From Pyropia yezoensis (taxonomy: Eukaryota > Rhodophyta > Bangiophyceae > Bangiales > Bangiaceae): a stretch of 64,000 nucleotides of DNA. Positions 533 to 24,274 of the stretch are shown here, piece by piece. The DNA lies in assembly GCA_009829735.1 (NCBI GenBank), contig CM020619.1, forward strand, positions 28,732,063 through 28,796,062, given 5' to 3'. The notes beneath the pieces are model-generated. The model was not told where the DNA came from. It searched no databases and saw only the letters and a program-made list of their open reading frames with translations. The first letter of the stretch is position 1; each line of letters begins with the position of its first letter. Position numbers and translations under genes: made by a program.

Positions 533-628
533 TGTAGCAATATGGTTGTCCGTATTGTGACCCTAATATCAGGGGGCTACTTCTAATCCTTAACTTCAAT
601 TTGAGAGTCCGAGCTGGTCACGGTATCT
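533..628 (+). repeat. LTR B of Element 1, cut by assembly gap
   Basis: These are the first 96 bp of an LTR starting TGTAGCAATATGG. It carries TATCAGGGG, shared with LTRs D and F rather than A, C and E. The rest lies in the N gap. By comparison with 4407 onward it should be the 5' LTR of array unit 1. Confidence 0.88.
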
Positions 629-3984: not shown

Positions 3985-4346
3985 TGTAGCAATATGGTTG
4001 TCCGTATTGTGACCCTAATATTAGGGGGGCTACTTCTAATCCTTGGCTTTCAAGTTGATAGTCCGTACTGGTCACGGTATCTATAAGTTACGTATGACCA
4101 GAGGACTTGCATCTTGGGGTGGAGGGTAGTTAGTAGTGTCTCCGAGGGTTTATAACGTGGGGGCCGGCGGCGAATCCACCGCCGGCCAAGGTAGAACAAC
4201 AAACCCCTCCCATTTGGGCTCCCATCTTGGTCCCGTGGCTTGCGCTCCAAGGACAGCAACCTTGGCCTCCCGGTGACGTTGGTGCCGATCCCCCTTGGTG
4301 AGTGTTCCCTGAGAGTGGACGTGCGACGGATCCCTATTGTGCTACA
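3985..4346 (+). repeat. LTR C of Element 1 (3'-type, unit 1)
   Basis: 362-bp LTR with the standard TGTAGCA/TGCTACA ends, preceded by a purine tract. It is of the A/C/E class. A block at about 4044-4069 carries a cluster of substitutions not seen in any other LTR copy. The remainder is close to identical. Confidence 0.92.
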
Positions 4347-4406
4347 CCCACGCTGGGGAGGCCACCCGTATACCCACGATCCGAGTCCCCCTCAACTCGA
4401 GGCGGG
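4347..4406. repeat. Inter-LTR spacer, copy 2
   Basis: 60-bp spacer between LTR C and LTR D, matching 474-532 and 15225-15284. It ends in GCGGG directly before LTR D. GCGGG also follows LTR F at the right end of the array. Confidence 0.85.
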
Positions 4407-4768
4407 TGTAGCAATATGGTTGTCCGTATTGTGACCCTAATATCAGGGGGGCTACTTCTAATCCTTAACTTCAATTTGAGAGTCCGAGCTGGTCACGGTA
4501 TCTATAAGTTACGTATGACCAGAGGGACTTGCATCTTGGGGTGGAGGGTAGTTAGTAGTGTCTCCGAGGGTTTATAACGAGGGGGCCGGTGGCGAATCCA
4601 CCGCCGGCCAAGGTAGAACAACAAACCCCTCCCATTTGGGCTCCCATCTTGGTCCCGTGGCTTGCGCTCCAAGGACAGCAACCTTGGCCTCCCGGTGACG
4701 TTGGTGCCGATCCCCCTTGGTGAGTGTTCCCTGAGAGTGGACGTGCGACGGATTCCTATTGTGCTACA
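4407..4768 (+). repeat. LTR D of Element 1 (5' LTR of the complete unit)
   Basis: 362-bp LTR, TGTAGCA...TGCTACA, with a PBS starting 2 bp after its end. By eye it differs from LTR F at one position (AACGAGG versus AACGTGG), but from its own 3' partner LTR E at about four. That is the wrong way round for a simple element and fits array duplication. Confidence 0.93.
4571..4577 (+). promoter_or_regulatory. TATA-like box in LTR D
   Basis: TTTATAA lies 164 bp into the LTR and is present in every complete Element 1 LTR. It is the likely core promoter for the retroviral transcript. Inferred from sequence and position only. Confidence 0.45.
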
Positions 4769-4769
4769 T

Positions 4770-4787
4770 TGGTGGAGCAGCAGGGGA
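4770..4787 (+). promoter_or_regulatory. Primer binding site (PBS), Element 1
   Basis: TGGTGGAGCAGCAGGGGA begins 2 bp after the LTR. TGG at the start pairs with the CCA end of a tRNA. Element 2 has nearly the same 18-mer in the same place, which supports the assignment. The tRNA species was not identified. Confidence 0.8.
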
Positions 4788-4993
4788 CGGGTTTCCGTCA
4801 CCCTTGTGGTGACGCCGTCTTCGGCCCTGGCACACGGATAGGGATCCGGTCCTTTTCTTGTACTCGTGGTGTTGCGACCTGATCGATTGTGTTGAGCTCT
4901 TACCTGTGACTGTGATCTACTGTTACTCTCCCCAATCTACCCCCTCGCTCTCTTATTCGTGGTGATCGTTGCGTCGGTGGACTGATTGTGACT

Positions 4994-7176
4994 ATGTCTA
5001 CCCAAGAGACGGGGAACGTTCAAGATGACGGATCGGCGTCGACGCCGACTCCGGAGGTGACTACGGGAACCGGGATCGGTAACCCGATCGATAACATTGA
5101 GACGCCAATGCTTTCCGGTGCCGGATCGACGTTTGGCACGGCTCGGACGGCAGGAGGCGGGGGCCCGCCTCAACTGTCGTCGACCGACCTCACTCCGCCG
5201 CCTCCTTCACCAGGGGATTCCCTGATGGCATCATTGGCCCGCATCGAGGCCCGGTTTTCCGGGCTCGACGCCCGTCAAGATCGGACGGAGGACGCAATGG
5301 CAGTGTTGATGTCAACACGGCACACGACGGGACCCCGTCGTGTTCCTCCCACACCGGTACGGTTCGAACCGGCCGGACTACTTTCGGAGTCCACCAGGGT
5401 CAACCCCGGTGTTGCTACTCCTGGACAACCCCCGGACACAATGGGATATGGGTCCGACTCGTCGGCAGAGTTGGAACGGAGTCACACGGAGCGATACGCT
5501 CGGAGCACCCGAAGCGGACTCCGCGGACACGACCCGGCGGATACGTACGCCGGGGGAGAGTCGGTTATTGGGGGAGGGGGTACCCTCTCGCAGTACCCCA
5601 CGACGAAGGAGCCCTGGCAACTCGGGTTCCCGAGGTGCCGACGCCTGAAGTACCATCTTCAGTGGTGGAAGCTATGACCGCGCAGGTAACTGCGAGCCTA
5701 CTGAAGCGGATGGAGTCCGATGAGTTCGCTCATCAACTGGCTAAGCGACTGGATATCCAGGACGCTGACACGGAGATCGTCAACGAGGTCTTCCGGTCGG
5801 TCCTTACTCCGGAACGTTATCGTTTGGAGGACCGCTCTACCACCGTATCGGAATCGATGCGTAATACGTCGCATCGGGCGATCCGCTCTATGCAGACCCT
5901 TATGAAGGGAGTCCCTATGTTCGGGGGGCCGAACGGACGCCCGTTGGCAGTCATCGGCTTCTTGACTAGCTTCAAGGCAGCCGCAGACAAGGCGCTCGTT
6001 AACGAGGGGCTGGCCCTGGAGATCCTCCCGTTCTTTGTTGATGAACGGGTGCGAGGCATTCTTCGCCAGGCATCCCCGATGCCGGGAATGAGGGTCGCGG
6101 CCACCCCCATGGATTACCGTGGGATATTGAAGGAGCTGCTGAGCAGCTACCTCAGTGAGAACAAGTGCGAGGACCACTATCGGGCCCTTCGCACTGCCAC
6201 CGCCCAGTCCTGGGAGGATGAGGACATGTTTGGACGCCGGATCCAAAAGCTCGACTACGAGCTGGGGAAGCTCCTCGGAGAAGGGGAGCTACGGGCCATC
6301 CTGTTCGCAGGAGTACCCAACTACGTGCGGATATCCGCACGGGGCGCCAACACGGCACGGACGAACTTCAGTCGACTGATGCATATGTGCAAGTCCCTAG
6401 GGGACGCCTACCGGGTTCTACACCCGGAGTGTGCCTTGGCCCCGAAGCCCAAGGGTGAGGGAGGCAAGCCCAGTCTTACCCCGGTACCGAGGCAAGAGAA
6501 GGTGGAACGTAAAGCCGCACCAGTACTGGTGGCGACCGAACATACCCCTATTGGTGAGGATGACCCTCTAGTCGACCAACAGGGCCACCTGTTGCTACCG
6601 GCGACGCCGGTGATTGATGAGCACGGTACGGTAGCGTACATCGCCCCGGCTGGGACCCAGTTCCAGGTCAACGAGGTAGCGGGACGGCGCGTCCCGTATG
6701 TGCGGACGACGGGGTATGCCCCGGTTACGGGTAACCCCCACCAGCCCCTGCCTACATGGGCAGTACGTACGGAGGCACCTCCGCAGATTGCGGGCCGACC
6801 CAACCGGTTGGGGGAGTCCATGTTCCGGTTGACCCAAGGACCCAAGGCCTACCAGGGAGCAGGCACTCGGGCGCCCGAGGGAGGCAACCGCAGCTACGGG
6901 GCTACCCCGATGCGAACTCAAGGAGGGACCGGCACGTCCGGATGTATGTTGTGTGGGAATCCCCAGCACTGGATGTCTTCCTGCCCACTCATCCCCGAGG
7001 AGTCTCGGCGGGCAGCGGCGCAACGCAAGGCATCCACCGGGGGGTATCCCGCCCGAGCACCCGGACCCGCACCGGGTAGGCAGCCAGCTCCAGGTGGAGT
7101 ACTGGCCGTCGAGGGGGCACCTCCTCAGCCGGATGTCCCGGCGGACAGCACCCTACCAAGGGCGGGAAACGAGTAA
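4994..7176 (+). pseudogene. gag: Gag polyprotein, Element 1 (one frameshift)
   Basis: Gag forms the particle and binds the genomic RNA. The ATG at 4994 (MSTQETG...) opens a frame running to about 5640. The rest, from about 5635 to the TAA at 7174-7176, is in another frame. The two overlap, and both stay open across the GGGGGAGGGGG run at 5570-5580, so a single-base indel there is a likely cause. A programmed shift cannot be excluded. The N-terminal 200 residues are Pro/Thr/Gly-rich. The middle (about 5700-6420) is the conserved capsid-like part. A CCHC zinc knuckle, CMLCGNPQHWMSSC, lies near 6950-6985. Gag ends AGNE-stop, exactly as in Element 2, and pol starts 8 bp later. Confidence 0.85.
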
Positions 7177-7184
7177 GAGGAAGG

Positions 7185-10100
7185 ATGACCGGGGGGCGCT
7201 GGGGTTACCCAAGCAAGCCACCCCGGAGTACCGCGGGGAAAGCCCCACGGAGAGCGCGGTTGAGCCGACGCCGCATCAACCCCCGGGTACACCTTCCGGC
7301 CCCGACGACACGGCGTCAGGGGATTGATGACCAACCTCCAAGGTTGGGAGGAGAGGACGGGAAGCCCCGTCACGTTGAACCAGACAAGGGCCCTGTTCAG
7401 GATGCCCGAGCTACACCGGATATCGGTGTAGGACATGTGTTGTTTACCTTGGAGAACTTCAAGGTATCAGCCACACTGGGGGTTGACCCCCAGTCGACAC
7501 GATCGTACTACCCTGTACTGGATACAGGGGCTGGACCCAACCTTATCCGGAAGGATACCCTCCCGGACAAGTGGCTTCCACGAGTCAGAGTGACTCGGGG
7601 ACCCACCATCAAGGACGCGAATGGTCGACTCATTCGTACGACCGCAGCGATGTCGCTGCAGGTTACCATCGGGGATCTCACCACGGAAGTTGACTTCCTG
7701 GTATGTGAAACGCTATCGGTGCCCTGCATACTGGGGTGCACCTTCATCAACGCTCACGTTGATGCAATCCGGCCAGGCCGGAGGACCGTCGAGCTTCAAG
7801 AAGCCGACGGGACGAAGCGAGGACACACGGCTATCGTCAGGGACCTGACGCTACAAGGAAGCCACGTTAACGTGGCTGAGGTGTACGCAAGCGTCGAGCC
7901 GAAGACACTTCGGGTGGCCAAGCGAACTCGCTTTGAGCCGTTGTCAGGGACAGTCCTCCCGGTTAACTGCGACCTCGCAGGCATCTGCAGAGTCCAGTCC
8001 AACTTGCGGACGTACAAGCGCCATGGGTTGACCATGGCCAACGGTCTCATAGACCTCCCAGCAGGAGGGTCGTCCCTCCTAGTGATGGCGAACTACCGCC
8101 GTAAGGCAGTCACCCTCCCGAAGGGAACTATCCTCGGGATTGCCGAACTCTACGAAGGAGATATCCTTACCCCTGATAAGGAAGGTCAAGTGGAACCACT
8201 TGAAGTACTGGCGGTCGCCGAGACCACCGAGCGACAGCAACCCGATGACGGGAAGCCTAACCCATCGGCGGCTCCGGCGGACCTGCCGCCAAAGGACCAA
8301 GAGGCCTTGAAGGCACTGGCCGAGGCTGACCTCGACCACCTTCCCCCTTCGGTAGCCGAAGGGGTACGACGGATGCTAAGAAAGCATGACGTTATGTGGA
8401 CAGGCGGGGCCTTGGGGACCATTGGGGCAACCCAACATCGTATAGACCTGGTACCAGGCGCACGACCCGCCCGCTCACAACCGCACCGAGCGGGACCTAG
8501 GCAACGAGAGATCGTTGATGGAGAAGTGAAGAGGATGAGTGAAGCTAAGGTGATCCGACCTTCGATGTCGGAATGGGGTGCCCCAGTCGTTATTGTGCCG
8601 AAGAAGGATCAAACCCCTCGGTTTTGCATCGATTATCGACGCCTCAACTTGGTTACCAAGAAGGACTCATACCCTTTACCAAGGATGGATGAATGCATCG
8701 ACTTCTGGGGGAGGCTACGGTGTTTACCACCATCGACTGCAATGCCGGATACTGGCAGATCCCGGTGGCGGACGAGGATATCCCCAAGACGGCATTCGTC
8801 TGTCACAGTGGAGTGTACGAGTTCCTAAGGATGCCCTTCGGATTGTCCAACGCCCCCGCTACATTCCAGCGGGCTATCGACATCATACTGTCGGGGGTGA
8901 AGTGGCGTAACTGCCTAGTGTACCTCGATGACGTCATCGTCTTCTCGCGTAACATGGATGACCATGTACAACATGTTGACGAGGTACTCACCCTCTTGAG
9001 GAACGCCGGGGTAACCCTGCGTCTGAAGAAGTGCGCCTTCTTCCAACAGACGGTCGAGTATCTGGGCCACCAGATAACCCCTGGTAAACTAGGGGTACTC
9101 GAAGCCAATACCCGGGCACTCCGGGATGCCCGGTTCCCTAACACCCAGACGCAGCTCAAGAGCTTCCTGGGAATGTGCAATGTATACCGACGGTTCGTCA
9201 AGGACTTCGCTCGGATAGCTAAACCGTTAACGGTTCTTACGAGCAGTACCTTACCCAAGGTACTCCAACCCCCTTCGCCTAGCGAAGAGGAGGCATTCGA
9301 GTCGCTGAAGCGAGCCCTACTAGCCCCCCCCGTCCTTGCGTTACCGCATAGACGGGGTACCTTCGTCATCGATGTCGATGCGTGTGATACACAAGTGGGA
9401 TGCACCCTGTTACAGGGAGAGACGTTGATAGGTACCGACAACGTTACCCCGGACCTACGTCCGGTAGGGTACTTCAGCCGGACACTCAACCCGGCTGAGC
9501 GGAACTATAGTGCCACCGAGCGTGAATGCCTCGGAGTTATATGGGCAGTACAACTGCTCCGTCCATACCTGGAGGGCTCCAGGTTCATCGTGAGGTCCGA
9601 CCACGAACCCCTACGATGGCTCCTCAACCTTGGTGACAAGGATTCCGATAGCCATGGGAGGCTAGCCCGATGGAGGCTGAAGATGGCCGAGCACGACTAC
9701 CGCACGGTGTATAAGGCTGGGTCAACCCACCACCTCGGAGACGCATTGTCTCGACTCGACACCCCGAGCGGAAATACCCGCCCGGTGGACGAGGACATCC
9801 CGGTAGTACCGGTGTGCATGGTGGGTAATGCTACCCAGGGTATGGCTGACCATACCATGGCACACCTTGCGTGCCCATTGACCCTCGCGGACTTCCGCGA
9901 GGCACAGGCCAACGACGATGACTGTAGTAGTCATCGTGCTAACCTCCTGGCTGGTACGGCCGGCATCTTCTCCGAGAACGAAGACGGACTCATATACCGG
10001 CGGGCACCCGCCGATGGACGACATCAAGTCGTGGTTCCCGTGTCCTTACGGCAAGCCGTCATGAAACGAGAACATGCGAACCCTACAGCCGGACACCCGG

Positions 10101-11350
10101 GGGGTTCACGTATGTTCGCAGCAATGCGAAGGTTCTTCTACTGGCCAGCAATGGCCGTCGACGTGGTCGACCACGTAAGGGGATGCCACCCCTGTGCACG
10201 TAACCGCATGAGTCTACATAGGCGGGCGTCTGCCATGAAGCTATTCCCACCTGATGGGCCCAACGAGCAGGTCGCTATCGACATACTCGGGCCACTTCCG
10301 ATAACGGAAGAAGGGAACAGGTACATCCTGGTCATGTCTGACCGCTTCACTAAGCTGTCAAGAGCGGCAGCCATCCCGAATGATACGGCATACAAGATCA
10401 TGAACGCAGTGGTTGACCACTGGATCAGTGCATACGGAGTCATGAAGCAACTCCTCTCCGATAACGGAACAAACCTTACGTCGGCATTCTGCACTAAGGT
10501 CCTGGGCATGTTCGGTATCGAACCACGTCGGGCATCCGACTACCATCCGCAGTCCAACGGACAGGTGGAGCGGTTCAACCGCACCATCGTAAAGATGCTA
10601 CAGTGCTACGTGGCCGAGCACACGAACACTTGGGACAGGCTTCTGTCCGTACTCACCCTGGCATACAATGCCAGGCCACATCGGAGCACAAACATTGCTC
10701 CGCTGGAGTGGGTCATGCCACTAGGCGTCGGTAACTTGACGCTGCCACCCGGCAGGTGCACTCGGTATGATACACCGAAGGGCCGACCCGCCGAACGCAT
10801 CCACCTAGCTTGGTTGGCCAAGCTATCGTGGATGATTCCTAAGCTCAAGGGTGCCCTTGACAGAACACAACTTCGGTATAAGAAGAACTTCGACGCCCGA
10901 CTACGGGTGCGCAACGCAACCCTGGTAACAGGTGACTGGGTCTATATCAGACACCAGAAGCTCCGAGGGAACAAGCTTATGCAACCGGTCAAGGGACCGT
11001 ACCAGATCCTCCACAGAGATGACCACTCTGTTATCTTGCACTCCGATACGGAGATTCAACGCATCAACCTCAATGATGTGACACCTGCTCCGATGCCGGA
11101 ACAGCCTCAGCCGGTACCGGCTGGGTTGCTACATGAAGCTTTTACAACCCACCGGTCAGATGACCCGGTGGGACCGGATGGGATTCCATACCAAGTAGAG
11201 AGCGTGGTCGGACACACCGACCCGGACCTACCAGGACCCTGGTACGTCAAGGTTATGTGGGTCGGATACGACTCACCCACCTGGGAACAGGCGGCAAATA
11301 TACCCCGCCAACTCCTCATGCCGTACATGAGGCGACGACGCCTACTGTAA
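7185..11350 (+). pseudogene. pol: Pol polyprotein with chromodomain, Element 1 (one frameshift in RT)
   Basis: Order along the ORF: aspartic protease (DTGAG, about 7520); RT with FCIDYRRLN (about 8625) and catalytic YLDD (about 8920); RNase H (FVIDVDACD, about 9363); integrase with an HHCC zinc finger (about 10070-10200) and the D,D,E core (DILGPLP, LLSDNG, SNGQVERFN); and a C-terminal chromodomain (VKVMWVGYDSPTWE, about 11245-11290). The frame changes at about 8703-8712, between PRMDECID and [12 protein letters not shown]. Element 2 reads straight through this point, so one base is missing here. The start ATG at 7185 follows the gag stop, so expression probably depends on reinitiation or a shift at the junction. 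The chromodomain is expected to steer integration to marked chromatin. Confidence 0.93.
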
Positions 11351-11829
11351 CAACCCAACCGACACCGACTTCGGCTGTTGGGGGGTGAGGCTTATACCTA
11401 CTAAGTAGGGTGTGACGTGGTTACGGCAGACTTAGGTTTCTAAGTCAAATCAGACTTAGGTTTCTAAGTCGAACCAAGCTTAGGTAACTAAGTAGAGCTA
11501 AGCTTAGGTAACTAAGTAAAACCTGAACCTTAATAAGTTAACTTTAAGGTAAAGGCTAACTCCGATAATATCGAAGTAACTAGGGAGCTTACACGGGAGG
11601 ATGACCTCCCCAAGCCAAGACACCAAGTGAGGGAGGATTACCTCCCCAAGCATGAACCTACCGGAAGAAGTTGGACGGGAGGCAAGGCACCACTGAGCCA
11701 GAAGGGGTACTCCCCAGGGCAGCAAACAGAGGCAAGCAATGCCCCCAAAAGGGGATGAGTTTATACTCACTACTACCCGGCTACCATAAGGGTTGCCGGG
11801 GCCCTCTCCCGCACAAACAATAGCACTCC
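11351..11829. other. Intergenic region between convergent pol and aORF
   Basis: There is no gene in this 479 bp. It is AT-richer than its surroundings and full of small hairpins: four tandem 24-bp palindromic units (11429-11517) and two GGGAGGAT(T/G)ACCTCCC hairpins (about 11595 and 11633). It probably holds the 3' ends of both converging transcripts. Confidence 0.6.
11429..11517. repeat. 24-bp tandem palindromic repeat x4
   Basis: Four units start at 11429, 11453, 11477 and 11501. The period is exactly 24 bp. The core of units 1 and 2 is GACTTAGGTTTCTAAGTC. Units 3 and 4 carry AGCTTAGGTAACTAAGT. Each unit is its own inverted repeat (CTTAG/CTAAG arms). The location between the pol and aORF stops suggests a two-way terminator or an RNA structure. 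Confidence 0.85.
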
Positions 11830-14277
11830 TCAGTGGGTAGACCCACTGCCCGAGGGAGGCCACTCACGCGTAAGCGCGTAGACCTCCGTGCTCCACCTGT
11901 CGGCAACGTCACGACGGTCGACCACCCGAGTTACCTCGGTGCATAGCTGGACGAGGGTGCTGCGGCCAGCCTCCACGTCCTCCAGAGCTTTCTGGAGGCG
12001 GTCCAGCACGCCACCGAAGCAACGCGCTGACCCAACCAGCGCAGCACCTGGGGGGATATCCCCCCAGCTAACAGAGAGACCCCCACGCATTGCGCGGGTA
12101 ACAAGGGCGTCAACGCCATCATACCAGAGACGGGGACCCCCGTCTTGTATGACAGGGGCGGGAGCTGACACTGGCGCAGCCAGAGGAGCCACAGGAGCCG
12201 ACACGGCTACCACCGGAGCCGGTGGCACCTGATACGAGGCCCGGTAGGACCCTACCGAAGGGGCTCCACCGTAACCACGGCGGTACTCCGCCCGACGACG
12301 GGACACCTCACGCTCCCCACCCACAGAGCCCCACTCTCGGGGACGACGGCCAACCGCCGCCGGCATCGGATTACCGAACCACGGAGCAAGGACCTGAAGA
12401 GGGTCATGGATAACCATGGGAATACCCAGGTCAGCAACAGCCTCGGTGGATGCCCACCCATGGCAACTGGGCTCACCCGGCTGAGTACGCCGGACACGCA
12501 ACGAGTGACGAGGCAAGGGGGAAGCCCCAGCCTGCGGGTCCCGGTACGGGGGAAGGGCCAACACCCCAGTCCAGTTCACGGCATCGTGAACAGCCAGCAG
12601 GGCTTCGAACTCCCGGGCCAACCCGGTCTTGGCGGCTATCAGATCCACGCCCAACTGCGCGATGTGCCGACGGACACCCGTCGGAAGATGAAACAGACGA
12701 CCCTGCCGGCGGACGGACAGCAAGAAGGATGAAGCCTGCCCGAGGGTAACCTCAAGGGTGAAGGTACCCTGCAACGGGTGGACCGGTCGCGAGGCCAACA
12801 CACTCCCGAAGTAGCGAAGACAGGAGCCGGTGTCAAACCGGAAAGCAGGGGCGGGTTCCCACCCCTCCTGCCATAGCGGCGGGCGCACGGGAGTGTGTAC
12901 CGGAGCACGACCGTTGCCGGTCTGCAACGCACACGTTATATCCGTGCGGAACGCATCCGCCATGACACCATGGTTACGTCGCCAACTCGACGCCGACTTC
13001 AACCCCGCCATGGGCGGGTAGGGAGCCGTCAACGACAGATACGGGGGTACCCCCGGGTAGTAGTCAAAGTCGGGATACCGACCGGTACTGCCCACCGTCT
13101 CCCCAAACGCAACCGGCTCCGCCGCCGCCGCAATCCCCCGAGCACTAGCCGGGTAGTCAATCTCCCGCGGCAACGCGGGGGCAATCAGGTCGCAGACCCC
13201 GAAGTTGGGGTCGAGGTAGACCTCACCCCGTCCCACCCGTGTGCGCCAGAGCTGCGCATGCCGGTCGTCCGGCTGACTCAGGATCCAATGATGTTCCACC
13301 CGGACCGCGTTCGGCTGGTTGACCAGCCGCACCAACTCCCGCTCCCAGCTCGGGTCCACCTTAACGCGGCGGGAGGACGCTCCACGGGGATGCACCAGGT
13401 GGAAGTCCACCCGCATACGCCCATCGGACTCCATCGACTCTTGCACCGTGAGGCCTCGAACCCGAGCCACCAAGTCGGACACCGCCATGGCGGGTTGACC
13501 CGCCGCCACGGCGACGCCGCCACCCAACGGGGCAACCCGGGCAGGACCAGGAAGAATCGGGGGCGCCGGGGGACGCACCACCGGCAGAGGGGCCGACGTC
13601 GGAGATGGACGAGGCCGAGGAGGAAGAAGAAGGGCGGGCGCCCGCCCGGAGTAACTCCCGGTGTCAACCGCCATGGGAGAAGGAGCGTCTTGACCGCTCG
13701 ACACCCGCGGCACCGCAGGTCTGGTACCGGCGCCGGCACCACCCGTCGGCGTAGCCCCCGCCTCGGAAGGGGAAGGCACTTGGACAGCCTCCGGAGCCGG
13801 AGCCCCGGCCGTGCGGACACCCGCACCGTCTTGACCCGCCGCACCGGGTGTCGCACCGCCACCACCACCCGCGTCAACGTCGGGACCGCCTCGAGGAGTC
13901 ACCGCCCGGACACCCGGACCACCTTGACCAGCCGGAGTCGGCTGCGGGTCGCCACCTCCGCCGCAGGGCGGACCATCTTGGGGTAGCTGCGGTGAGCCGG
14001 CACCGGCACCAGGCTCCATCCGGGCAGCCGTCAGAGGGGGGGTAGAAGCCGCCACGCGCGGTTGACCGCCGGGTTGACCTCCGGCCGACGGCACCGTCGT
14101 GCCGCTGCACACGGACGACAGTCCTCCGGCCGACAGACGGACGGACACAGCAGGCGCGTCGTCGTCAGACGAGCTCACCCCGTAACGCGCGGCGTCGGGA
14201 CCGACAGGCGCGTCGTCCTCCATCTCCTCCCCGATCAGGAGGTCTTCCTCCTCTTCAAGCACCTGGGGATAGGACAT
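11830..14277 (-). CDS. Antisense ORF protein (aORF1) of Element 1, unknown function
   Basis: This uninterrupted 815-codon ORF runs against gag-pol, between pol and the 3' LTR. The ATG at 14277 (MSYPQV) is chosen because the diverged unit-1 copy has MSDPQV in the same place. Residues 1 to about 280 are an acidic start followed by Pro/Gly/Ala/Thr-rich, probably disordered sequence. Residues about 282-640 are a conserved core with PPYL, FGSV, RRQGRLFHLP and VHDAVNW. The C-terminal part has a helical stretch (DRLQKALEDVEAGRSTLVQL). No signal peptide, membrane segment or known enzyme motif is visible. Element 2 has an ORF in the same place and orientation with these motifs at matching spacing. Antisense ORFs are known in some plant Ty3/gypsy elements. 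I recognise no family here. Confidence 0.8.
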   Translation of the reverse strand: MSYPQVLEEEEDLLIGEEMEDDAPVGPDAARYGVSSSDDDAPAVSVRLSAGGLSSVCSGTTVPSAGGQPGGQPRVAASTPPLTAARMEPGAGAGSPQLPQDGPPCGGGGDPQPTPAGQGGPGVRAVTPRGGPDVDAGGGGGATPGAAGQDGAGVRTAGAPAPEAVQVPSPSEAGATPTGGAGAGTRPAVPRVSSGQDAPSPMAVDTGSYSGRAPALLLPPRPRPSPTSAPLPVVRPPAPPILPGPARVAPLGGGVAVAAGQPAMAVSDLVARVRGLTVQESMESDGRMRVDFHLVHPRGASSRRVKVDPSWERELVRLVNQPNAVRVEHHWILSQPDDRHAQLWRTRVGRGEVYLDPNFGVCDLIAPALPREIDYPASARGIAAAAEPVAFGETVGSTGRYPDFDYYPGVPPYLSLTAPYPPMAGLKSASSWRRNHGVMADAFRTDITCALQTGNGRAPVHTPVRPPLWQEGWEPAPAFRFDTGSCLRYFGSVLASRPVHPLQGTFTLEVTLGQASSFLLSVRRQGRLFHLPTGVRRHIAQLGVDLIAAKTGLAREFEALLAVHDAVNWTGVLALPPYRDPQAGASPLPRHSLRVRRTQPGEPSCHGWASTEAVADLGIPMVIHDPLQVLAPWFGNPMPAAVGRRPREWGSVGGEREVSRRRAEYRRGYGGAPSVGSYRASYQVPPAPVVAVSAPVAPLAAPVSAPAPVIQDGGPRLWYDGVDALVTRAMRGGLSVSWGDIPPGAALVGSARCFGGVLDRLQKALEDVEAGRSTLVQLCTEVTRVVDRRDVADRWSTEVYALTREWPPSGSGSTH

Positions 14278-14862
14278 GATAACGGGTGCGGAGTCCCCCG
14301 CGCCCACAAGCCGTCGACGGCTACGACCCGGTACGGTGGGTTAACCGGGACGAGCCAGGGAAGCGCGGGCACCCGCGCTTATGACCACAAACGGCCACGA
14401 GAAGCGCCGCAGGCACGCGGGTCGACCCGCGCCCCACGGGGCTACGACCGCGCTCCACCCAGGCACCTGGGCGGGACGGGGCCACACCCACACACAGGGT
14501 AAGCAAGGGGGGTCACCCCCAACCGCCCCCACGCAACGCGGGCAGCCCCCGCCCCCCACTCAATCGTCCACACGAGAGGGACCCCCCTACCACCAGGCAC
14601 CTGGTGGCGGATCCGCTTGCACCACCCCTCGGAAAGGGGGGTCGTGAACAAAAACCCGCATCGGGAAATTAACGGTCCGGAAAACGGATCGTGTGTGTAC
14701 CACACAAAGGGGGGCACCCCCCTCGGACAACCTCGTAAAGGGGTGTCTGTCGCGACGGGGCGCAAAGCCCCACCCGACGGGTAAACAGTCACGCGACCCA
14801 CTTACATTCGGTAACCCGAATGCAACTCGACCCGAGGACGGGCCGAATCTAAGGGGGGGATA
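14278..14862 (+). other. Non-coding tail of Element 1 with PPT
   Basis: No gene is supported in this 585 bp between the aORF start and LTR E. Dense inverted repeats include CGCGGGTCGACCCGCG (14416-14431) and CCACCAGGCACCTGGTGG (14590-14607). The purine tract AAGGGGGGGA (14851-14860) plus TA abuts the LTR and is the likely polypurine tract. The aORF promoter, if any, should lie here. Confidence 0.7.
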
Positions 14863-15224
14863 TGTAGCAATATGGTTGTCCGTATTGTGACCCTAATATT
14901 AGGGGGGCTACTTCTAATCCTTAACTTCAATTTGAGAGTCCGAGCTGGTCACGGTATCTATAAGTTACGTATGACCAGAGGGACTTGCATCTTGGGGTGG
15001 AGGGTAGTTAGTAGTGTCTCCGAGGGTTTATAACGTGGGGGCCGGCGGCGAATCCACCGCCGGCCAAGGTAGAACAACAAACCCCTCCCATTTGGGCTCC
15101 CATCTTGGTCCCGTGGCTTGCGCTCCAAGGACAGCAACCTTGGCCTCCCGGTGACGTTGGTGCCGATCCCCCTTGGTGAGTGTTCCCTGAGAGTGGACGT
15201 GCGACGGATCCCTATTGTGCTACA
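14863..15224 (+). repeat. LTR E of Element 1 (3' LTR of the complete unit)
   Basis: 362-bp LTR with TGTAGCA...TGCTACA ends directly after the polypurine tract. It carries the A/C/E-class variants. It is followed by CCCAC, which does not match the left flank of LTR D. Confidence 0.93.
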
Positions 15225-15284
15225 CCCACGCTGGGGAGGCCACCCGTATACCCACGATCCGAGTCCCCCTCAACTCGAGGCGGG
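15225..15284. repeat. Inter-LTR spacer, copy 3
   Basis: 60-bp spacer matching 474-532 and 4347-4406. It ends GCGGG at 15280-15284. This copy is likely to be the original, still joined through LTR F to Element 2 sequence. Confidence 0.85.
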
Positions 15285-15646
15285 TGTAGCAATATGGTTG
15301 TCCGTATTGTGACCCTAATATCAGGGGGGCTACTTCTAATCCTTAACTTCAATTTGAGAGTCCGAGCTGGTCACGGTATCTATAAGTTACGTATGACCAG
15401 AGGGACTTGCATCTTGGGGTGGAGGGTAGTTAGTAGTGTCTCCGAGGGTTTATAACGTGGGGGCCGGTGGCGAATCCACCGCCGGCCAAGGTAGAACAAC
15501 AAACCCCTCCCATTTGGGCTCCCATCTTGGTCCCGTGGCTTGCGCTCCAAGGACAGCAACCTTGGCCTCCCGGTGACGTTGGTGCCGATCCCCCTTGGTG
15601 AGTGTTCCCTGAGAGTGGACGTGCGACGGATTCCTATTGTGCTACA
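15285..15646 (+). repeat. LTR F of Element 1 (solo-like, right end of array)
   Basis: 362-bp LTR flanked on both sides by GCGGG (15280-15284 and 15647-15651), a 5-bp direct repeat. That is the signature of a solo LTR with its target-site duplication. No PBS follows it. It closes the array against Element 2. Confidence 0.9.
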
Positions 15647-15699
15647 GCGGGTCTCGTGCCGCGATAGCCAGAGCGTCTCTCCCCAACTTGGGGAGAGCC

Positions 15700-17643
15700 A
15701 TGGCGACTCCGGGAGTGGAGACGGACTCTCTTGACGAGCGCATGGAGGACACCTCCTACGGTGCAGCACCCGCCGGGACTTCCGGCGGGGGCTCCGCGAT
15801 CGCTCCGGGGGACGGGACTCCCGCGTCACCCGGCTTTGGGTTGACGGCGGGGTCTCCCCCGGAGGCGGGACAAGTTGTCCCGCGTGAGGCCTTGGGGCGG
15901 TGGTTTTACCCCGCTTGGCCTCTCTATGAGGAGGGGCTGACTGTTCTTCGCTGTGGCCGACTTGGCGCAGCGATGGGCCGGGTATGGGACCGCCTACGGG
16001 AGAAGTATCCCCGTAGGGTCGGGTTCCCTGCCGGCTTCAGGACGGACCAGTTTGCCTTCCTGGACGATGAGGAGGTTGAGGACGTTCAGCGGGCCAAGGC
16101 CATGGAGGACCGCGGGGGAACTATCCCGGGTCCCGGCGACTTGCCGACCTTCACGTGGGACGCTGTGGCAACTCGCCCGCCGTACCTCCACGAGGCCGAT
16201 CCGCACACTCATCACTTTGATGTGCGGATGGAGAAAGACTTTCGGCGAGGTCCCTACTTGGTGACCTCGGCTCAACTTGAGTTTCCTCAACAGTCTGCTG
16301 CCAGTAAGGAGCAGTACTATCCGAAGAAGCCCGAGTGGTGGCCTCAAGGTGAGGTCCCCTACGGGTTCCCGGCGTTGTTGCCACGGTTGCTTGACCACTT
16401 CGGCTCCGTCATGTTGACGGCTTCCCCTGATCACCTGGTGTGGGCCATGCTGGCCACCCAGTGGCTCCTCGAGGTCATGTCGACCTGGGTGTCCTGTGTT
16501 CAGCGGCGGGGGATGCTCTGGCATCTCCCCCTCCGGCTCATCCAAGGTTTGGAACAGCTCACCCTTCAGCTAGTTGCTGAGGGGTGCTCATCAGGACAAC
16601 TCACTCTACTTGAGGAGATGCTCCGGCTCCATAAGTTTATCGAGTGGGAGAGCATTGAGCACAAGTTGCGCCGCCCCACTCGTGGGCCTAAGGACGATGG
16701 CGCACTTCGCCAGTTCGTGTGGGTCGCTCGTGAACTTCACGACGGCCGTGTGGTCCTACGAGAGGGGTTGGGCATCGGGGACTACCCGTATGCCCCGGGG
16801 GTGGATCGCCACACTGCGCCACCCCCGGACAAGCCCATAGTTATGGCTGTGCCCTCATATGATGACCATGTGACTCAACCTACTGCGGGGGCCCCAAGTC
16901 GGGGTCGCAGTTACACCCGGGTACCGCCACCTCGGCGGGCCCCTCCGCTTCCTCCTGTTCCTTTCCAACCTCACGGGAACATCCCGATCAGAGTGGCCGT
17001 GGAGTCTTCCACCCCGGTGTCCCCCAACTTGGGGGCCACCCTCCTGACGGTATACCCCAAGTTGGTGTTGCCGCCCACGCCTCTAACCTCAGAGATGATG
17101 ATCACCACGTTGGTGCGCACCATTTCCTGGTTGGCCGCGTCGACCGCAACCCTACAGAGTTCCGAGACTCCTCAACTTGAGGAGCGCGTTCGTACTGCAG
17201 TGGCGACCGCGAGTTGCGAGTCGGTGGCGGAGTTTATGACAGCCGAGTTGGCTCGCATTGGGGCTATTATGCCCCAGCCAGCCCCACTTGGGCGTGGCAA
17301 ACGTCGCGCGAGCCGGGCATACTCGCCTCCTCGCCGTCGTCGCCGACACTCGCGGCGCTCTCCTTCCGTATCGGAAAACGAGTTGTCTTACTCCGTTTCG
17401 GAGTCCTCTACCCCGTCGGAGACGGCGTCTGTCCAGCGTCTGCGTCGCAAACTTGCGCGCAAGACCAGGCAGAAGAGTGGCCACGGTCGGCGCCACTTGC
17501 GCGACCGTGAGGGGCGCGACGGTTCCGACTTGGAGCCGACGCCCCCTCCAACGAGTGGAGACCGTTATCGGCGTGGGTCTCGCCGCTCGCCTCCACGTGA
17601 GGGCGAGGGCCGTGGAGTGGGAGAGTCTAGCATGCGTGCCTAG
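15700..17643 (+). CDS. Antisense ORF protein (aORF2) of Element 2, unknown function
   Basis: This is an intact 647-codon ORF on the strand opposite gag-pol, between the pol end and the expected 3' LTR. The ATG at 15700 (MATPGVETDS) is the first ATG; an upstream TTG lies in LTR F and is not used here. The N-terminal 65 residues are low-complexity. The core (about 65-350) has PPYL, then FGSV (about residue 234), RRGMLWHLP (about 268-276) and LHKFIEW. PPYL to FGSV is 74 residues (79 in aORF1). FGSV to HLP is 41 (40 in aORF1). HLP to the Trp is 41 (39 in aORF1). The C-terminus is an Arg/Ser-rich tail that aORF1 lacks. The stop is 111 bp from the pol stop. The first element's insertion sits just upstream and may have removed its promoter. 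Confidence 0.78.
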   Translation: MATPGVETDSLDERMEDTSYGAAPAGTSGGGSAIAPGDGTPASPGFGLTAGSPPEAGQVVPREALGRWFYPAWPLYEEGLTVLRCGRLGAAMGRVWDRLREKYPRRVGFPAGFRTDQFAFLDDEEVEDVQRAKAMEDRGGTIPGPGDLPTFTWDAVATRPPYLHEADPHTHHFDVRMEKDFRRGPYLVTSAQLEFPQQSAASKEQYYPKKPEWWPQGEVPYGFPALLPRLLDHFGSVMLTASPDHLVWAMLATQWLLEVMSTWVSCVQRRGMLWHLPLRLIQGLEQLTLQLVAEGCSSGQLTLLEEMLRLHKFIEWESIEHKLRRPTRGPKDDGALRQFVWVARELHDGRVVLREGLGIGDYPYAPGVDRHTAPPPDKPIVMAVPSYDDHVTQPTAGAPSRGRSYTRVPPPRRAPPLPPVPFQPHGNIPIRVAVESSTPVSPNLGATLLTVYPKLVLPPTPLTSEMMITTLVRTISWLAASTATLQSSETPQLEERVRTAVATASCESVAEFMTAELARIGAIMPQPAPLGRGKRRASRAYSPPRRRRRHSRRSPSVSENELSYSVSESSTPSETASVQRLRRKLARKTRQKSGHGRRHLRDREGRDGSDLEPTPPPTSGDRYRRGSRRSPPREGEGRGVGESSMRA

Positions 17644-17754
17644 TTGGCAGCTGCCTTTGTTGTGAGAGTGTGAGGGTTAGGGCTGTAGTTAAAAGCCACT
17701 CTGCGTACCACTTCGACTTGAAGCACTCTCTTGGCACTGTTGCTCGGCCTTCCC

Positions 17755-19182
17755 TCACGTTGAGGGAGGGCTGTTAGGGTCTATCTCATTCCGGGCACAG
17801 TGCGCCCGGACGTTCTCAGCGGGAAGGTCCTCCACATACTCCCACGTATCATCCTTGGCTTTGTAGCCAAACCAACGCACCCTCAACATGAGGCGGTCAG
17901 TGTCTTCATCCCATCCGTGGTCGATGAACTTATCGAACACGTACTCCTGCGGGCCCTGCTTGGCCGCAGGCAGTGAGGGGAGGCGCCACGATTCCAACGC
18001 ACGCGCCCAAGCTGGGTCGCCTGCAGGCGGTGGTGCAACTTTGACCACGTCCTGTCCGTTCACTGTGCGGACCCCATCGTCACTTTCGATGGTGAAGCGC
18101 CGCCCATCAGTACGAAGGACCTGGTACGGTCCCTTCGTCTGGAATACCAGCTTACCCCCAGTTGGGGTGTGCGAGTGTACCAGCACCCAGTCACCCTGCT
18201 CGGGGACATGTTTAGCATTGCGCACCTTTTTGTCAAAGGTACGCTTGTAGCGCTTTTGTGCTTTGTCCATCTCAGCCCTGACTTTAGGGATGAGGTTTTC
18301 AAGCCTAGCGGCGAACTCCGCCTTACTCTCAGTAGGAGTAGGCGTACTGCCACCATCCTCCCTAGTTGGGAGCGACCGCCGCACGGCAATAGACCGCACG
18401 CGACGGGGGGTCACAAAAGCGAGGGGTACTTCCCCTGTAGATGAGTGAACCTGCGAATTGTAGGCAGTAGTAAGGATAGAAATGTATTGGTCCCACGTCT
18501 TCACGTGCTCACTCACATAGTGGCGCAGCTGCCTAACAATAGTTTTGTTGAAGCGCTCCACCTGCCCATTAGTTTGTGGGTGGTAGGGGGTGGCATAGTT
18601 TGCCTTAACCCCCAACATATCCAGCACTCCCTGAAACAGTACAGACGCAAATTGCGGTCCATTGTCCGATAGTGTACTATCCGGAATGCCATACGCGGCA
18701 ACCCAGTGATCTAGGAAGGCTGACACGACCGACATGGCCGTGATCTCCGCCAGGGGGATCGCTCGCGTAAGTTTCGTGAAGCGGTCACAGATGACCAGGA
18801 GGTACTGGTTGCCCTCCTCGGTCACTGGCAGTGGCCCAAGGATGTCCATGGCCAACGCGGCGAAGGGCTCCTTGGCCGGGAACAATAGCATAGCCGTACT
18901 AGGCCGCCGTTCCATCAGACAGTTCTGTGCACAACTTGTGCAGGCAGCCACCCAACTGTAGATGTCCACCACCATGGACGGCCAGTAGTACCTGGTCCTC
19001 AGGGTCTGGTACAGTTTACTAGACCCCAGGTGTCCACCCGTGGGAGCGTTGTGCTCCCTCTCAAGGATACTGTCCTTGAGGGATGCGGGGACGACAAGTT
19101 GTTCAGTCCCCTGGAATACCCCCCTCCTCATGAGGAGGCCATCGTCTCCCAGAAAGAAGCGCGTCTCAACCACCGTATCCAA
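17755..19182 (-). pseudogene. pol: Pol part 3, Element 2: integrase and chromodomain
   Basis: This segment has an integrase HHCC zinc finger (HNAPTGGHLG ... CTSCAQ), the D,D,E core (DILGPLP, LSDNGPQF, TNGQVERFN) and a C-terminal chromodomain (LRVRWFGYKAKDDTWEYV). It is separated from RT-RNaseH by a frame change in the 17-bp overlap 19166-19182, so the polyprotein is broken as read. The stop at 17755-17757 faces the aORF2 stop with 111 bp between. Confidence 0.9.
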
Positions 19183-21142
19183 TGTATCCCTCTGCGACTT
19201 GCAGATAGGGATCCTCGGCCTGGGCCTTCACCACCTCTTCCAGGGACAGGGGCAAGTACTTCTTGTTCCCTGGCGCCTCGGGGTTCAACGCCTGACCCGA
19301 GCGCGTGACTACCCCCACGATGGGGATGTCCTCATCGACTGGGTTAGTGTCCAGCCCCTCGGTGGGTACCCGAGAGAGGCCGTCGGCAAGGGCATGTTGC
19401 CTGCCAGGTCGGTACTCAATGTCAAAGTTGAAGGGTGCCAGTCGCACCCTCCACCGGTTGAGACGAGTGTTCGTACAGTCCGTCTTGAAGATAAACTGCA
19501 ACGCGCGGTGGTCACAGCGGATGAGGAACTTCTCACCCTCTAGGTAGTGACGAAGTGACGTCACCGCCCACACCACTGCGAGTCCTTCCAACTCGGTGAC
19601 TCCGTAGTTCTTCTCGGCCGAGTTCAGCCCCTTACTGAAGTATCCCACCGGCAAGTACTCCTTGTCCGGCTGCTGCTGAAGCAACACACAACCAAGTTGG
19701 TCGTAGCTAGCGTCCACATCCAGGATGTAGTGGCCTCTCAACCTGGGAATAGCCAAGATGGGGGGCTTCAGCAGAAGGTCCCGAAGAGTCTCAAAGGATT
19801 CCTGCTCCACCCGACTTGGGGGAGGCAGTTTCTTCGGTAGCGTTGAGCTCACTAGCTCATTCAACGGCTTCGCCACCTTGGCGAAGCCCTTGGTGAAACG
19901 TCGGTACACGTTACACATCCCGAGGAAGCTCCTCATCTGGGTCTGGGTCCGGGGGTACTGAGCCTTACGAATGGCCCTCAAGTTCTTCTCGTTAACAGTG
20001 AGTCGCCCCGGACGGACAACATGTCCCAAGTACTCCACCTCTTGAGTGAAGAGGTGGCACTTACTCGCCTTCAGTGACACACCGGCGTCAGCAAGTAGCT
20101 TGAACACCTGGCCAAGATGGCCAATGTGTTCCTCCGGACTTCGGGAGAACACAATGATATCGTCTAGGTACACAAGACAGATCTGCCACCGTACTCCGGC
20201 CAGAATCATGTCCATAGTGCGCTGGAAAGTTGCCGGCGCGTTACACAGACCAAACGGTAGACGCTTGCACTGGTAGGTACCACAGTGACAGGTAAAGGTA
20301 GTTTTGTGCCTGTCCTCCGGGGCAATGGGAATTTGCCAGTACCCCGCGTTACAGTCCAGGGTAGAGAACACGTTTGCCTCCCCCAGAGAGTCCAGACAGT
20401 CATCCATCCTAGGTAGGGGATAACTGTCCTTCACCGTGCTCTCGTTGAGCTTACGGTAGTCGATACAAAACCGGGGGGTCCCATCAACTTTGGGGACGAT
20501 AACCACCGGACTCGCCCACTCGGCGTTGCTGGCCTCGATCACATCGAGGGCCTCCATGCGAGCAACTTGCTCCTTAACGAGGGCCCTTGAACGGGGTCCT
20601 CCCCTATACGGTTGTTGGCGTATAGGGGGTGCACCGGGCTTCAACTCGATCCGGTGTTGGGTAGCTCTCATGAGTCCCAATTGACCATCCCACAACTTGT
20701 GATATTGGTCCAAGAGGCGTTCAACTTGAACCCTCAACCTGGGTGGAACACCCTCCATGTTCACATGGGGCCGAGGAGAGGCGGCCGACTTGGCTTGATG
20801 CTTCTCCTTTCCGGACTTCGGGTCGCTACTTGCGCCCGCGTTGAGGGTGACCGCTACTACCGGTCCCTCGTGTTGGTCGATATAGCCGAACTTGGCTCCG
20901 GACTTGAAGTACTTGGGCGTCGGGCTCAGGTTCATCACCTGGATCCTCCACGGGACTCCGGCTTTGGAGTCCATCGTGCCAAGGGCAACATGCACTTGGT
21001 GCTTGCGAGCAAGACGGGGGTTAGGGTGCACCAACCCGTTCCCCGTATAATCAGTTACAACATCCACGTGCGCCACCGAGTTGGGGGGCAACGTGACTTT
21101 ACGGGCTAGACGCAGGGTAGCAGTAAACCCTTCCCTCACAGA
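19166..21142 (-). pseudogene. pol: Pol part 2, Element 2: reverse transcriptase and RNase H
   Basis: RT motifs include FCIDYRKLN, the continuous LDSLGEANVFSTLDCNAG segment that is broken in Element 1, and catalytic YLDD. RNase H follows (YILDVDASYDQLG, RCDHRALQFI). The segment is in the same frame as the protease part but separated from it by one TGA at 21145-21143. A frame change at about 19166-19182 cuts it from the integrase part. Confidence 0.92.
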
Positions 21143-21739
21143 TCAAACAGGCTTCGACTGTGAGACTGTCACAGGAGCCACAGACTTTCCCTTACCAAGA
21201 ATGGGGATAGTCTCCCCATTCATCAACTTGACCCAGTACTCAGGGCCACAAATCAAAGGCACTTGTGTAACGACATAAGGGGTACCCAGAAGCAGGGGTA
21301 CCGATATATTCTCAACTACACCATAGGTCACGTCGACCTCATGGGTCCCCAACCTAGTTGGTAGGGTCACGGCACCAACGATGGGAAGTACCCCACCATT
21401 GATGTCAATCATATGGTCAGCCTTGGACCTCCAGCGTTGGAGCTTCACCTCCTTTGGTAATAGCGACTTGCGTATCAAGGAGGCTCCTGACCCGGTATCA
21501 AGTACGATACGGGCACAACAGGCGCGGCCGGGGGCAAGTTGCACCCGTCCAGCCACCTGGAAGTTCTCACCCGTCAGCACCGCGATGACCCGACGTGGGT
21601 TTACGTTCTTGGGGAGTCCTACCCGAGGTGGGCGGACTCCCTTAGGTCGCCGCAGTATCCGGCACGGTTGGTTCGTCCTCCTGGCCCACTTGGCCGAGGC
21701 TGCCGTTGTGAGCTTCGGACGACCAGCCCCAACGGTCAT
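21143..21739 (-). pseudogene. pol: Pol part 1, Element 2: aspartic protease
   Basis: The 198-codon segment has the retropepsin motif IVLDTGSGASLI, then LLLGTPYV. The start ATG overlaps the gag stop as ATGA (21739-21736). The segment ends at TGA 21145-21143, after which the same frame continues into RT. That stop is most likely a nonsense mutation, since Element 1 is open at this point. Confidence 0.88.
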
Positions 21740-23682
21740 TCGTTTCCCGCCGACTTGGCGTCCGAATCTGAGGGCGGGGAGGAAGACGACGAGTCCGAGG
21801 ACGACGTGTCCGCCTCCTCCGCCGAGGGTGTGGCGACCGCGACGACCGGTCGAGACCCACCCTCGCGGCGTGAACGTACTTCGTTCGTAGCCGACTTCTT
21901 ACTCGCATTCCTAACAAGTTGTTGGATGCGTTTACTCAACTTGGGGCAATCATATGCCCAGTGTCCATCGGAGTTGCAGTTCCAACACCGATGGTCTGTT
22001 CCGGGAGGGATCTTCCCAACTGGGGAAGACGAAGGGATACCCTGGGAAGTTCCCACGGCAGCTACCACCCTCTCCTTGCGGATTCGGCGTGCCTCTCTCA
22101 ACTCTCTGGCCTGGCGCGCCTCCTCTCGTTCCTTGGCCAACTCGGCCTGACGCTTCTGGCGTTGTTCCTCCCGCAACTTGCGGTAGGCCTCACCTCTGCG
22201 GTAAGCGAACCTGGCCAACTCGGCCAGGGTCGCCCGGGCAGTGTTATGCTCCCGGGTCTCCATCCGGACTGACCAACGGAGTCCCTCCACAAACCGACTC
22301 TTCACCACAGCTTGTGGATGAAGAAACCCACAAAGATTGTTGAGCTTACGGACTCGCTCCGCAAAGGACAACTCGTCCTCCGCCTCTTCCTGATGGGCAT
22401 GCGTAAACTCCTTGACTTGAGAAGCCAACGCTGCCTCATCAACCATGGCTCTCAACAACCAGTTGACGAGCTCCAAATAGGACGTCACCTCCCCAGCGCC
22501 TCCACTTGAGGAGCTGGGCATGACGGACATAAGTTCTGTCCGCAGGTCGCCCTTGGTAAACTCCTGTAGCATGTAAAAAGCCATACCTTCACTTATGGCA
22601 TTGTCGTCACAGGCTTTTGTGAAACGACGTAGGAACTCAAAGACACGGAGGGGGGGAGTTCCATCCCACTCCGCTTTGTGCCCAAAAGAATGAAGTGCAT
22701 TCTTCTTGGCACGGCCCATGGCTCGGGCCTGGTCAGGACCATACGCCACCGACTTGTTGTGGAGGGCGTAGGTCTCACAGTCAAAGATCTTCTGGTAGAC
22801 CGGGTTGGCTACCTGGATCTTGGGCGGCACCTCACGTTGAGGGACCAGCCGCTGTGGCACTGGGGTAAGTTCACCCTCAGTGCCTGTAGTCCGGCGCGGC
22901 GCGCTTGGTGTAGCCGCCGGCGTTTCCGGGGGGAACTCCCCCGTGAAGGGCGTACGCCCCACCGAGAATGGTGCGGCTCCCACGTTGGGAGTCACAGGGG
23001 TCCCCCCCTGTTCGGGGCGACCCGGAATAGGCGTCAGGAGAGATTCCCCCTGCGCCTGCGGGCTCGAAAGCCCCAGTCCGGTCTGGACATTAAGGCCATC
23101 TGGCAAACTCGCCACAATCTGATTCAAAATAGTATTCGTCATCGTGACCACCAGGTCCGGCAAAGTCTGCCGCAACACATTGGTCGCCTCCCGACGGACA
23201 GTTTCCGCGAGGAGTGGATTGACGACTCCAGTTGAGTCTCGGTCCGCCTCCGGGAGTCCACCTGAGGGGTAACCACGTTCCTCAGGGGTCTCAACCGGGG
23301 GCATGGGCGCGAGCCCATCGCCGACCAACGGAGGTCCGCCGTCCTCCGAAAGCCTAGTTGGCGACGGCTCCAAGCCAAAGTTGGCTCCAACCCGAGTGGA
23401 ACCCGCGGGGACAGTCCTCACCCCTTGGGACGTTCCCGTTGAGTATACCACGCGGTGGCCAGACTTCGGCCCACCCACATCAGAAGTGTCACCCGAGTGA
23501 ACTCCCGACTAAGTCGGGGTGGCCTGTTGCCCGCCCATACTTCCATTCCTGCTGGCTTGAGGGACCTCTAGTCCCTCTGCGACCCCAGGTAAACCCACCT
23601 GTGTCTCACCAGTATTCAAAGGCACTGAAGTACGTGCGTCACCCGTGTACTCCCCGGACGACGGGGGGTCCGAACTAGCCAT
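21736..23682 (-). pseudogene. gag: Gag polyprotein, Element 2 (one in-frame TAG)
   Basis: The ATG at 23682 (MASSDPPSSG) opens a frame of 57 codons, a TAG at 23511-23509, and then the same frame open for about 590 codons. The middle is the capsid-like region, with a coiled, Arg/Glu-rich stretch (about 22090-22200) before a CCHC zinc knuckle, CWNCNSDGHWAYDC (about 21950-21990). It ends AGNE-stop, as does Element 1 gag. The TAG lies inside a perfect palindrome (CCCGACTAAGTCGGG). It is probably a nonsense mutation. Readthrough, or initiation downstream of it, is possible. Confidence 0.85.
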
Positions 23683-23781
23683 GTTGGCTGACGATCCGTA
23701 TGACACGGTCCAAGTCCACCGTTCCTCTGAGACAGAGGGCCCCCTACACCCGGGTGCACCCGGAGGTAAAGTTTACCTCTG

Positions 23782-23799
23782 TCTCCTGCTGCTCCACCA
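23782..23799 (-). promoter_or_regulatory. Primer binding site (PBS), Element 2
   Basis: Read on the - strand, TGGTGGAGCAGCAGGAGA lies 2 bp after the LTR. It matches the Element 1 PBS at 17 of 18 positions, so both elements probably prime from the same tRNA. Confidence 0.82.
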
Positions 23800-23801
23800 A
23801 A

Positions 23802-24274
23802 TGTGGCAAAAACCACAAGCACACACGGCACCCAAGTTTGGGCGGTGTGCTAGGGCTGCCTCCCGTGTCGGGGGAACCGGAAGAAGTGCAAGTCGCACAC
23901 ACTCTGTCCCTGTTGTGGGGCAAACCCCCCACGGACAAACAAGAGGATGGTGTGTGGTCCAACAGTTTCTTGGTCGGGACGGGGACGCAGGGCCAAGCCC
24001 CGCTGTCCCTCCCCTTATCCCCCCAGGGTCCACTCAGAATCTCGCCACTCAGAATCTCCCACCCCAGCACCTGCCCACCGGGCCACACGAAAATTCAAGA
24101 CGATAAATGCAGAAAACCCTCAAATCCAAGTTGGATTTACTACTAAGCTAACTATCCCAAACTTAGGGAATATGGACCCAAATGCAGGGGGAGGAACGGA
24201 TCAGGCTAGTGGCCTGCCGCCCCTTGCATGGCACGTGTTGCCCCCCCCCCTACCTGGGGGTCAATACTGCCACA
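23802..24274 (-). repeat. 5' LTR of Element 2
   Basis: This 473-bp segment starts TGTGGCA and ends TGCCACA, a perfect 7-bp terminal inverted repeat with TG...CA ends like Element 1. It lies directly next to the PBS. The second LTR copy is not in the window, so the outer edge rests on the inverted repeat alone. Short ORFs inside it are not supported. Confidence 0.72.

Follow-up and report, generated by a model that had tools for sequence, protein, structure and literature searches.

An antisense third gene between pol and the 3′ LTR in three diverged Ty3/gypsy element families of a bangialean red alga

The antisense open reading frames (aORFs) of Ty3/gypsy elements in Pyropia yezoensis are an old, selected, protein-coding third gene, and they form a new family of the known antisense accessory ORF kind. 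Two of them, aORF1 and aORF2, lie in the 64,000-nt stretch of genomic DNA that we analysed (hereafter the window), and a third, aORF3, was found at another locus. We observed homology between aORF1 and aORF2 and between aORF2 and aORF3, a fixed position on the opposed strand, after pol and before the 3′ LTR, and selection on aORF1 and aORF2. Our preferred reading, to which we give a probability of roughly 0.6, is that aORF1, aORF2 and aORF3 represent one antisense accessory gene family that descends from a common ancestor, was inherited with the elements and acts in trans in the nucleus. The common ancestor of at least three Ty3/gypsy lineages of a bangialean red alga probably carried the gene already, and it would have been passed on along with the elements from then on.

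Two nested elements with opposed third genes

Element 1 begins with a 362-bp 5′ LTR (4407–4768, + strand; TGTAGC..GCTACA), followed by the PBS-like TTGGTGGAGCAGCAG and by a gag of 513 aa (5635–7176, +) with one CCHC-like knuckle recognized by eye (Pfam zf-CCHC_2 only at E 0.15). In this copy, pol is divided between two overlapping frames, the first with the protease and the start of RT (7185–8828, +) and the second with RT, RNase H, integrase and a weak chromodomain (8693–11350, +); the overlap at 8693–8828 may reflect programmed frameshifting or decay. On the opposite strand lies aORF1 (11830–14277, −; 815 aa), whose conserved core, residues 285–690 (12208–13425, −), was used in profile searches. 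The 3′ LTR of element 1 is at 14863–15224 (+), and a leader of 585 nt (14278–14862, −) stretches from it to the aORF1 ATG.

Element 2 has its 5′ LTR at 23802–24274 (−; TGTGGCA..TGCCACA), a gag with a CCHC zinc knuckle at 21736–23478 (−), a protease region at 21143–21739 (−; Asp_protease_2 at E 0.0044, below cut-off), RT and RNase H at 19166–21139 (−), and an integrase with a weak chromodomain at 17755–19182 (−). Its antisense gene is aORF2 (15700–17643, +; 647 aa), with a conserved core of residues 55–440 (15862–17019, +). As the first-pass annotation of this DNA had described, aORF1 and aORF2 both lie 3′ of pol and are opposed to the gag-pol of their own element. A 21-nt palindrome, CTCTCCCCAACTTGGGGAGAG (10-bp arms, 15677–15697), ends 2 nt before the aORF2 ATG and is present too at loci L004, L053 and L056. 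In L041, a diverged relative of element 2, the stretches 2231–5006 and 8089–10000 hold parts that are repeated in inverted orientation within 10 kb.

Element 1 is nested inside element 2, where it lies a short way upstream of the start codon of aORF2 without interrupting that ORF. The tandem array of element 1 ends in an LTR (15285–15646, +) inserted in element 2. This LTR is separated from the preceding one by a 60-nt spacer (15225–15284), which is element-2 sequence and ends in the 5-bp target duplication GCGGG, found again at 15647–15651. The insertion site (60 nt at the matching place) was uninterrupted in all 19 other aORF2 loci fetched, and the matching 3′ LTR of element 2, displaced in the window by the element-1 array, was found upstream of aORF2 in 18 of the 19. 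Window positions 1–15646 and locus L042 cover an element-1 tandem array inside element 2, with units parted by the identical 60 nt of element 2. The array extends leftward, the 10 kb preceding the window being 99.9% identical to 4744–14747, an identity that points to very recent unequal recombination or to assembly duplication. The window has an N gap at 629–1128.

The two elements are diverged relatives, as indicated by the similarity of their gag, RT/RH and INT. RT/RH was 53% identical and INT 38% identical between them, and the two gag proteins, which had been thought unrelated by eye, aligned over 220 aa with 25% identity (E 1e-18). The LTRs, by comparison, were indeed unrelated, the best match being only 24 nt (E 0.25), and the PBS-like TTGGTGGAGCAGCAG stands beside the 5′ LTR in both elements (4769 and 23801). 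Both elements have the PR-RT-RH-INT order of Ty3/gypsy chromoviruses. Chromo matches at the C terminus of pol reached 22.7, 15.7 and 22.5 bits in elements 2, 1 and 3, respectively, all below the Pfam cut-off of 25.1. The host elements of the aORF family are probably Ty3/gypsy elements of chromovirus lineages.

Homology, copy number and placement of the antisense genes

Direct comparison of aORF1 and aORF2 by BLASTP gave 53.5 bits (E 2e-11, 24% over 230 aa). The controls remained far lower: the highest score among 1000 local shuffles was 28.5 bits, with any match in 527 of the 1000, the reversed protein gave 25.8 bits, and none of the other five frames exceeded 20.8 bits. Alignment of the two families with hhalign was likewise significant (probability 89%, E 2.1e-6). 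The shared motifs lie in the same order, at residues 411 and 160 (PPYL), 490 and 234 (FGSV), 524 and 269 (R[QR]GxLxHLP), 541 and 286 (QLxxxL[IV]A), and 569 and 316 (the final W) of aORF1 and aORF2, respectively, and these measured positions bear out the motif spacings of 79/74, 40/41 and 39/41 residues reported earlier. Judged by their sequences, aORF1 and aORF2 are real and homologous.

A third family was found by reading downstream of two RT places without the aORF1/2 motif, L057 and L058. At L057, a chromodomain-like pol end (22.5 bits) is followed on the opposite strand by an open frame of 844 codons, aORF3, of which a second copy (L059) was 98.8% identical. Downstream of the RT of L058, neither an integrase nor an antisense ORF was seen, and this locus is uninformative. 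aORF3 matched aORF2 with 43.5 bits (E 6e-8, 23% over 166 aa), compared to 31.6 bits for the best of 1000 shuffles, and profile A8 gave a modest match to aORF3 in the same core (probability 56%, E 1e-4). The direct match between aORF1 and aORF3 was not significant (23.5 bits, with shuffles reaching 28.9). These sequence matches indicate that a third diverged element family carries an aORF homolog.

The genome searched comprised 107.5 Mb in 11 contigs, in which the window occupies C2:28732063–28796062. Protein searches, ranked by score, found at least 66 places for aORF2 and at least 55 for aORF1, with a stop present in 4 of the 66 and 4 of the 55 places so scored. The genome contains 1754 matches to a degenerate pattern for R[QR]GxLxHLP, compared to a single match for its reversed control; the aORF3 motif pattern has 303 matches (controls, 0), and a YLDDxxVFS-type RT pattern has 2571 (control, 0). 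Placement was counted from the first 100 listed places per pattern, over the stretch common to both lists (C1:1–2,882,940). In this stretch, 37 of 62 aORF1/2 motifs had an opposed RT motif 3501–3763 nt away in the element layout, compared to 2, 3 and 3 of 62 in the wrong-strand and wrong-side controls, and 11 of 17 aORF3 motifs were linked to an RT motif at 3770–3784 nt (controls 0, 0 and 1). The other 25 aORF1/2 motifs and 6 aORF3 motifs were without an RT motif in place. Only 48 of the 100 listed RT motifs had an aORF motif partner (any of aORF1–3), which implies that in many Ty3 copies the gene is absent, its motif has been lost or it has diverged too far to be seen.

A search with the core alignment, in which 8000 candidates were scored, matched 24 proteins, and the eight with names all belong to Pyropia vietnamensis (MMPV_009242, 008948, 008454, 009449, 001347, 008444, 006872 and 010020; E 1e-28 to 1e-163 as homologs of aORF1). 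They are clear aORF1 relatives (~44–64% identity) and are annotated as hypothetical proteins.

Selection on the protein and explanations of its role

Selection was measured against 12 relatives hand-picked for variant codons from the 100 listed motif places and against L041, which was found via flanking sequence. The sample held seven aORF1 relatives, whose best stretches showed 66–82% aa identity, and six aORF2 relatives, five at ~88–96% aa identity and L041 at ~64%. The dN/dS ratio was 0.19–0.49 overall and below 0.5 in all 13 subfamily comparisons, with values of 0.14–0.42 in the core and 0.21–0.63 outside it, the 0.63 being reached in aORF1. Pooled values, well away from 1, were 0.37 for aORF1 (7 pairs; 8 stops in 4417 codons) and 0.24 for aORF2 (6 pairs; 6 stops in 3135 codons). 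The five other frames, pooled in the same way, gave 0.36–1.9 and 77–186 stops, or 1.16–1.9 without the mirror frame, whose lowish dN/dS arises because its third positions are common to those of the aORF. For aORF2 and L041, dN/dS was 0.29 over 576 codons, and the integrase of that pair gave 0.335 over 462 codons.

Copy-level variation was examined in 20 copies of each gene. Among variants common to several copies, synonymous and nonsynonymous changes numbered 72 and 8 in aORF2 and 11 and 6 in aORF1; among singletons they numbered 29 and 44 in aORF2 and 66 and 83 in aORF1. These sets were picked by protein score, which lowers the nonsynonymous counts and affects the contrast between shared and singleton variants less. 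Purifying selection maintains the aORF1 and aORF2 proteins, as read from these codon comparisons. The first-pass annotation had called the gene an ancient, selected third gene of algal chromoviruses. Its "ancient" and "selected" hold, the former because a third element family has a homolog and because P. vietnamensis has relatives at ~44–64% identity; "algal" amounts to Pyropia and close kin in our search, and "chromoviruses" goes with Chromo matches below the Pfam cut-off in all three elements.

No Pfam family was found at cut-off in the 26 aORF family members scanned, and a PDB sequence search with the family gave nothing significant. The AlphaFold model of aORF1 had a mean pLDDT of 44.9 and was mostly of low confidence; core residues 484–566 were predicted helical with low to middling confidence, and a C-terminal helical domain was predicted for residues 741–800 (11878–12057, −; block pLDDT 84–97). 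The likely layout is an acidic N terminus, a stretch rich in arginine (aORF1 and aORF2), a low-complexity linker, the conserved core and, in aORF1, the C-terminal helical domain. A PUR/Whirly nucleic-acid-binding fold for aORF1 residues 266–326 is a lead only. No TATA[AT] or CCAAT box was present upstream of the aORF1 or aORF2 ATG.

By analogy with Grande gene23 and the Retand TRP28 proteins, the aORFs may be transcribed from an antisense promoter of their own in the ~330–590 nt that lead from the 3′ LTR to the ATG, for which the leader at 14278–14862 is the candidate region in element 1, or from the 3′ LTR. The protein would then probably return to the nucleus and act in trans on DNA or RNA of the element that encodes it, either as a regulator or as a cofactor of silencing escape or integration.

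Instead of a nuclear regulator, the product could be a structural protein, namely an env-like or second capsid-like particle component made from a convergent transcript. The third gene does sit where env would be expected, after pol and ahead of the 3′ LTR, and the helical prediction for the aORF1 core would suit such a role. However, the antisense orientation would require a separate transcript, searches of Pfam and PDB gave no significant relative, and Arg-rich stretches and so long a low-complexity linker do not suggest a shell protein. We consider a structural role unlikely.

The two elements are also rich in short hairpins, defined here as perfect inverted repeats with arms of at least 6 and loops of at most 6. 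Positions 4001–24000 held 169 hairpins compared to 34.4 expected, an approximately fivefold excess that runs throughout both retroelements, while the host DNA of the window (24001–64000) held 100 compared to 94.9 expected, which is no excess. Element 1 (4769–14862) had 55 G[N4]C hairpins with five further pairs and 3 of the C[N4]G type, compared to 8 and 18, respectively, in host DNA at 26–64 kb. In element 2 (23801–15647), the hairpins were mostly odd-centred (39 of 58), often CAASTTG. The hairpin type was kept in relatives, the places often were not, and the arms differed: stems were kept in place in 1 of 20 cases in L055, 2 of 21 in L041 and 14 of 20 in L046, a closer relative, and compensatory double changes were clearly above expectation only in L047 (4 vs 0.64; 7 vs 1.69). 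One-mismatch stems, summed over both elements on the sense strand, comprised 29 A.C, 14 G.T and 60 other mismatches, and were above expectation in gag-pol too. Since A.C was commoner than G.T on the sense strand, sense-strand RNA pairing is not favoured. The dispersed hairpins may come from selection for dispersed signals or from a templated mutation process, and their excess is perhaps a greater novelty than the antisense ORFs. The aORF family could be a new class of nucleic-acid-binding factor evolving in step with its element: the aORF protein, or Gag with it, would read the family-specific hairpins and so tell the element's RNA or DNA apart from that of competing families. We regard this as a long shot; the element-3 loci L057 and L059 showed no hairpin excess, which counts against an obligatory link between aORFs and hairpins.

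The aORF might also be a separate mobile unit that lands in elements, or a host gene captured recently and independently in each family. No relative with a known function was found, in keeping with an origin by capture, and the aORF copies read, which bear on the separate-unit version, are a small part of the total. Nevertheless, the distance to RT is fixed in three families, and the divergence between aORF1 and aORF2 (24%) is like that of gag (25%), as expected under shared descent. We give either version very little credence. Still less credible is the idea that the antisense RNA is what counts, through dsRNA control of the element, with the ORF incidental: antisense RNA control has been discussed for plant elements (excerpts of PMC7264820), but frame-specific purifying selection and an excess of third-position changes strongly counter it, as does the protein similarity retained between element families. 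Finally, although the region has 62–68% GC, its mirror frames are long and the pooled mirror-frame dN/dS is lowish (0.50 for aORF1, 0.36 for aORF2), the notion that the aORFs are mirror-frame artefacts of GC-rich coding bias is already refuted by 161 and 141 pooled stops in the mirror frame compared to 8 and 6 in the aORF frame, and the strand opposite the aORFs showed no known domain there.

Comparison with known antisense genes of retroelements

LTR retrotransposons with an antisense third gene have been described in flowering plants and in a fungus. The plant genes are the aORF-3R of Tat/Retand elements, among them maize Grande gene23, rice RIRE2 and Silene Retand, with the TRP28 domain (PF04195) (excerpts of PMC7264820 and PMC11963269). 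According to these excerpts, aORF-3R is antisense, lies between pol and the 3′ LTR, and is found in most Retand copies and across diverged families. The genes described here resemble it: aORF1, aORF2 and aORF3 all run against gag-pol in the stretch from pol to the 3′ LTR, and the gene, present in many copies and under selection in aORF1 and aORF2, is not a one-off capture, though only 48 of 100 listed RT motifs were partnered. Unlike aORF-3R, the 26 members scanned had no match to TRP28 (up to E 0.1; up to E 1 for aORF3) or, at cut-off, to any other Pfam family. The host is a red alga, and its elements have weak chromodomain matches, whereas Retand is a non-chromovirus lineage. Grande gene23 is likened to the aORFs by placement.

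Outside plants, the gene brtn of the Boty-like elements of Botrytis is an antisense third gene in the same place, to which the aORFs are likened by position alone (excerpts of PMC7264820). HBZ of HTLV-1 is an antisense accessory gene of a retroelement as well; HTLV is a retrovirus and serves as an analogy only. Its antisense promoter lies inside the 3′ LTR (excerpts of PMC7264820 and PMC11963269).

In the titles and abstract openings of the literature surveyed, the protein family, the red-algal host group and the spread over three element families are not described. With many copies in one well-assembled genome, the gene is amenable to evolutionary and biochemical testing. In the single pair for which both were measured (aORF2 and L041), the aORF was about as constrained as integrase. 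With this constraint, a protein family that has no recognized domain and takes up one position in the elements of three diverged families is unlikely to be a dispensable by-product, and its occurrence suggests more than one origin of antisense accessory genes among retroelements.
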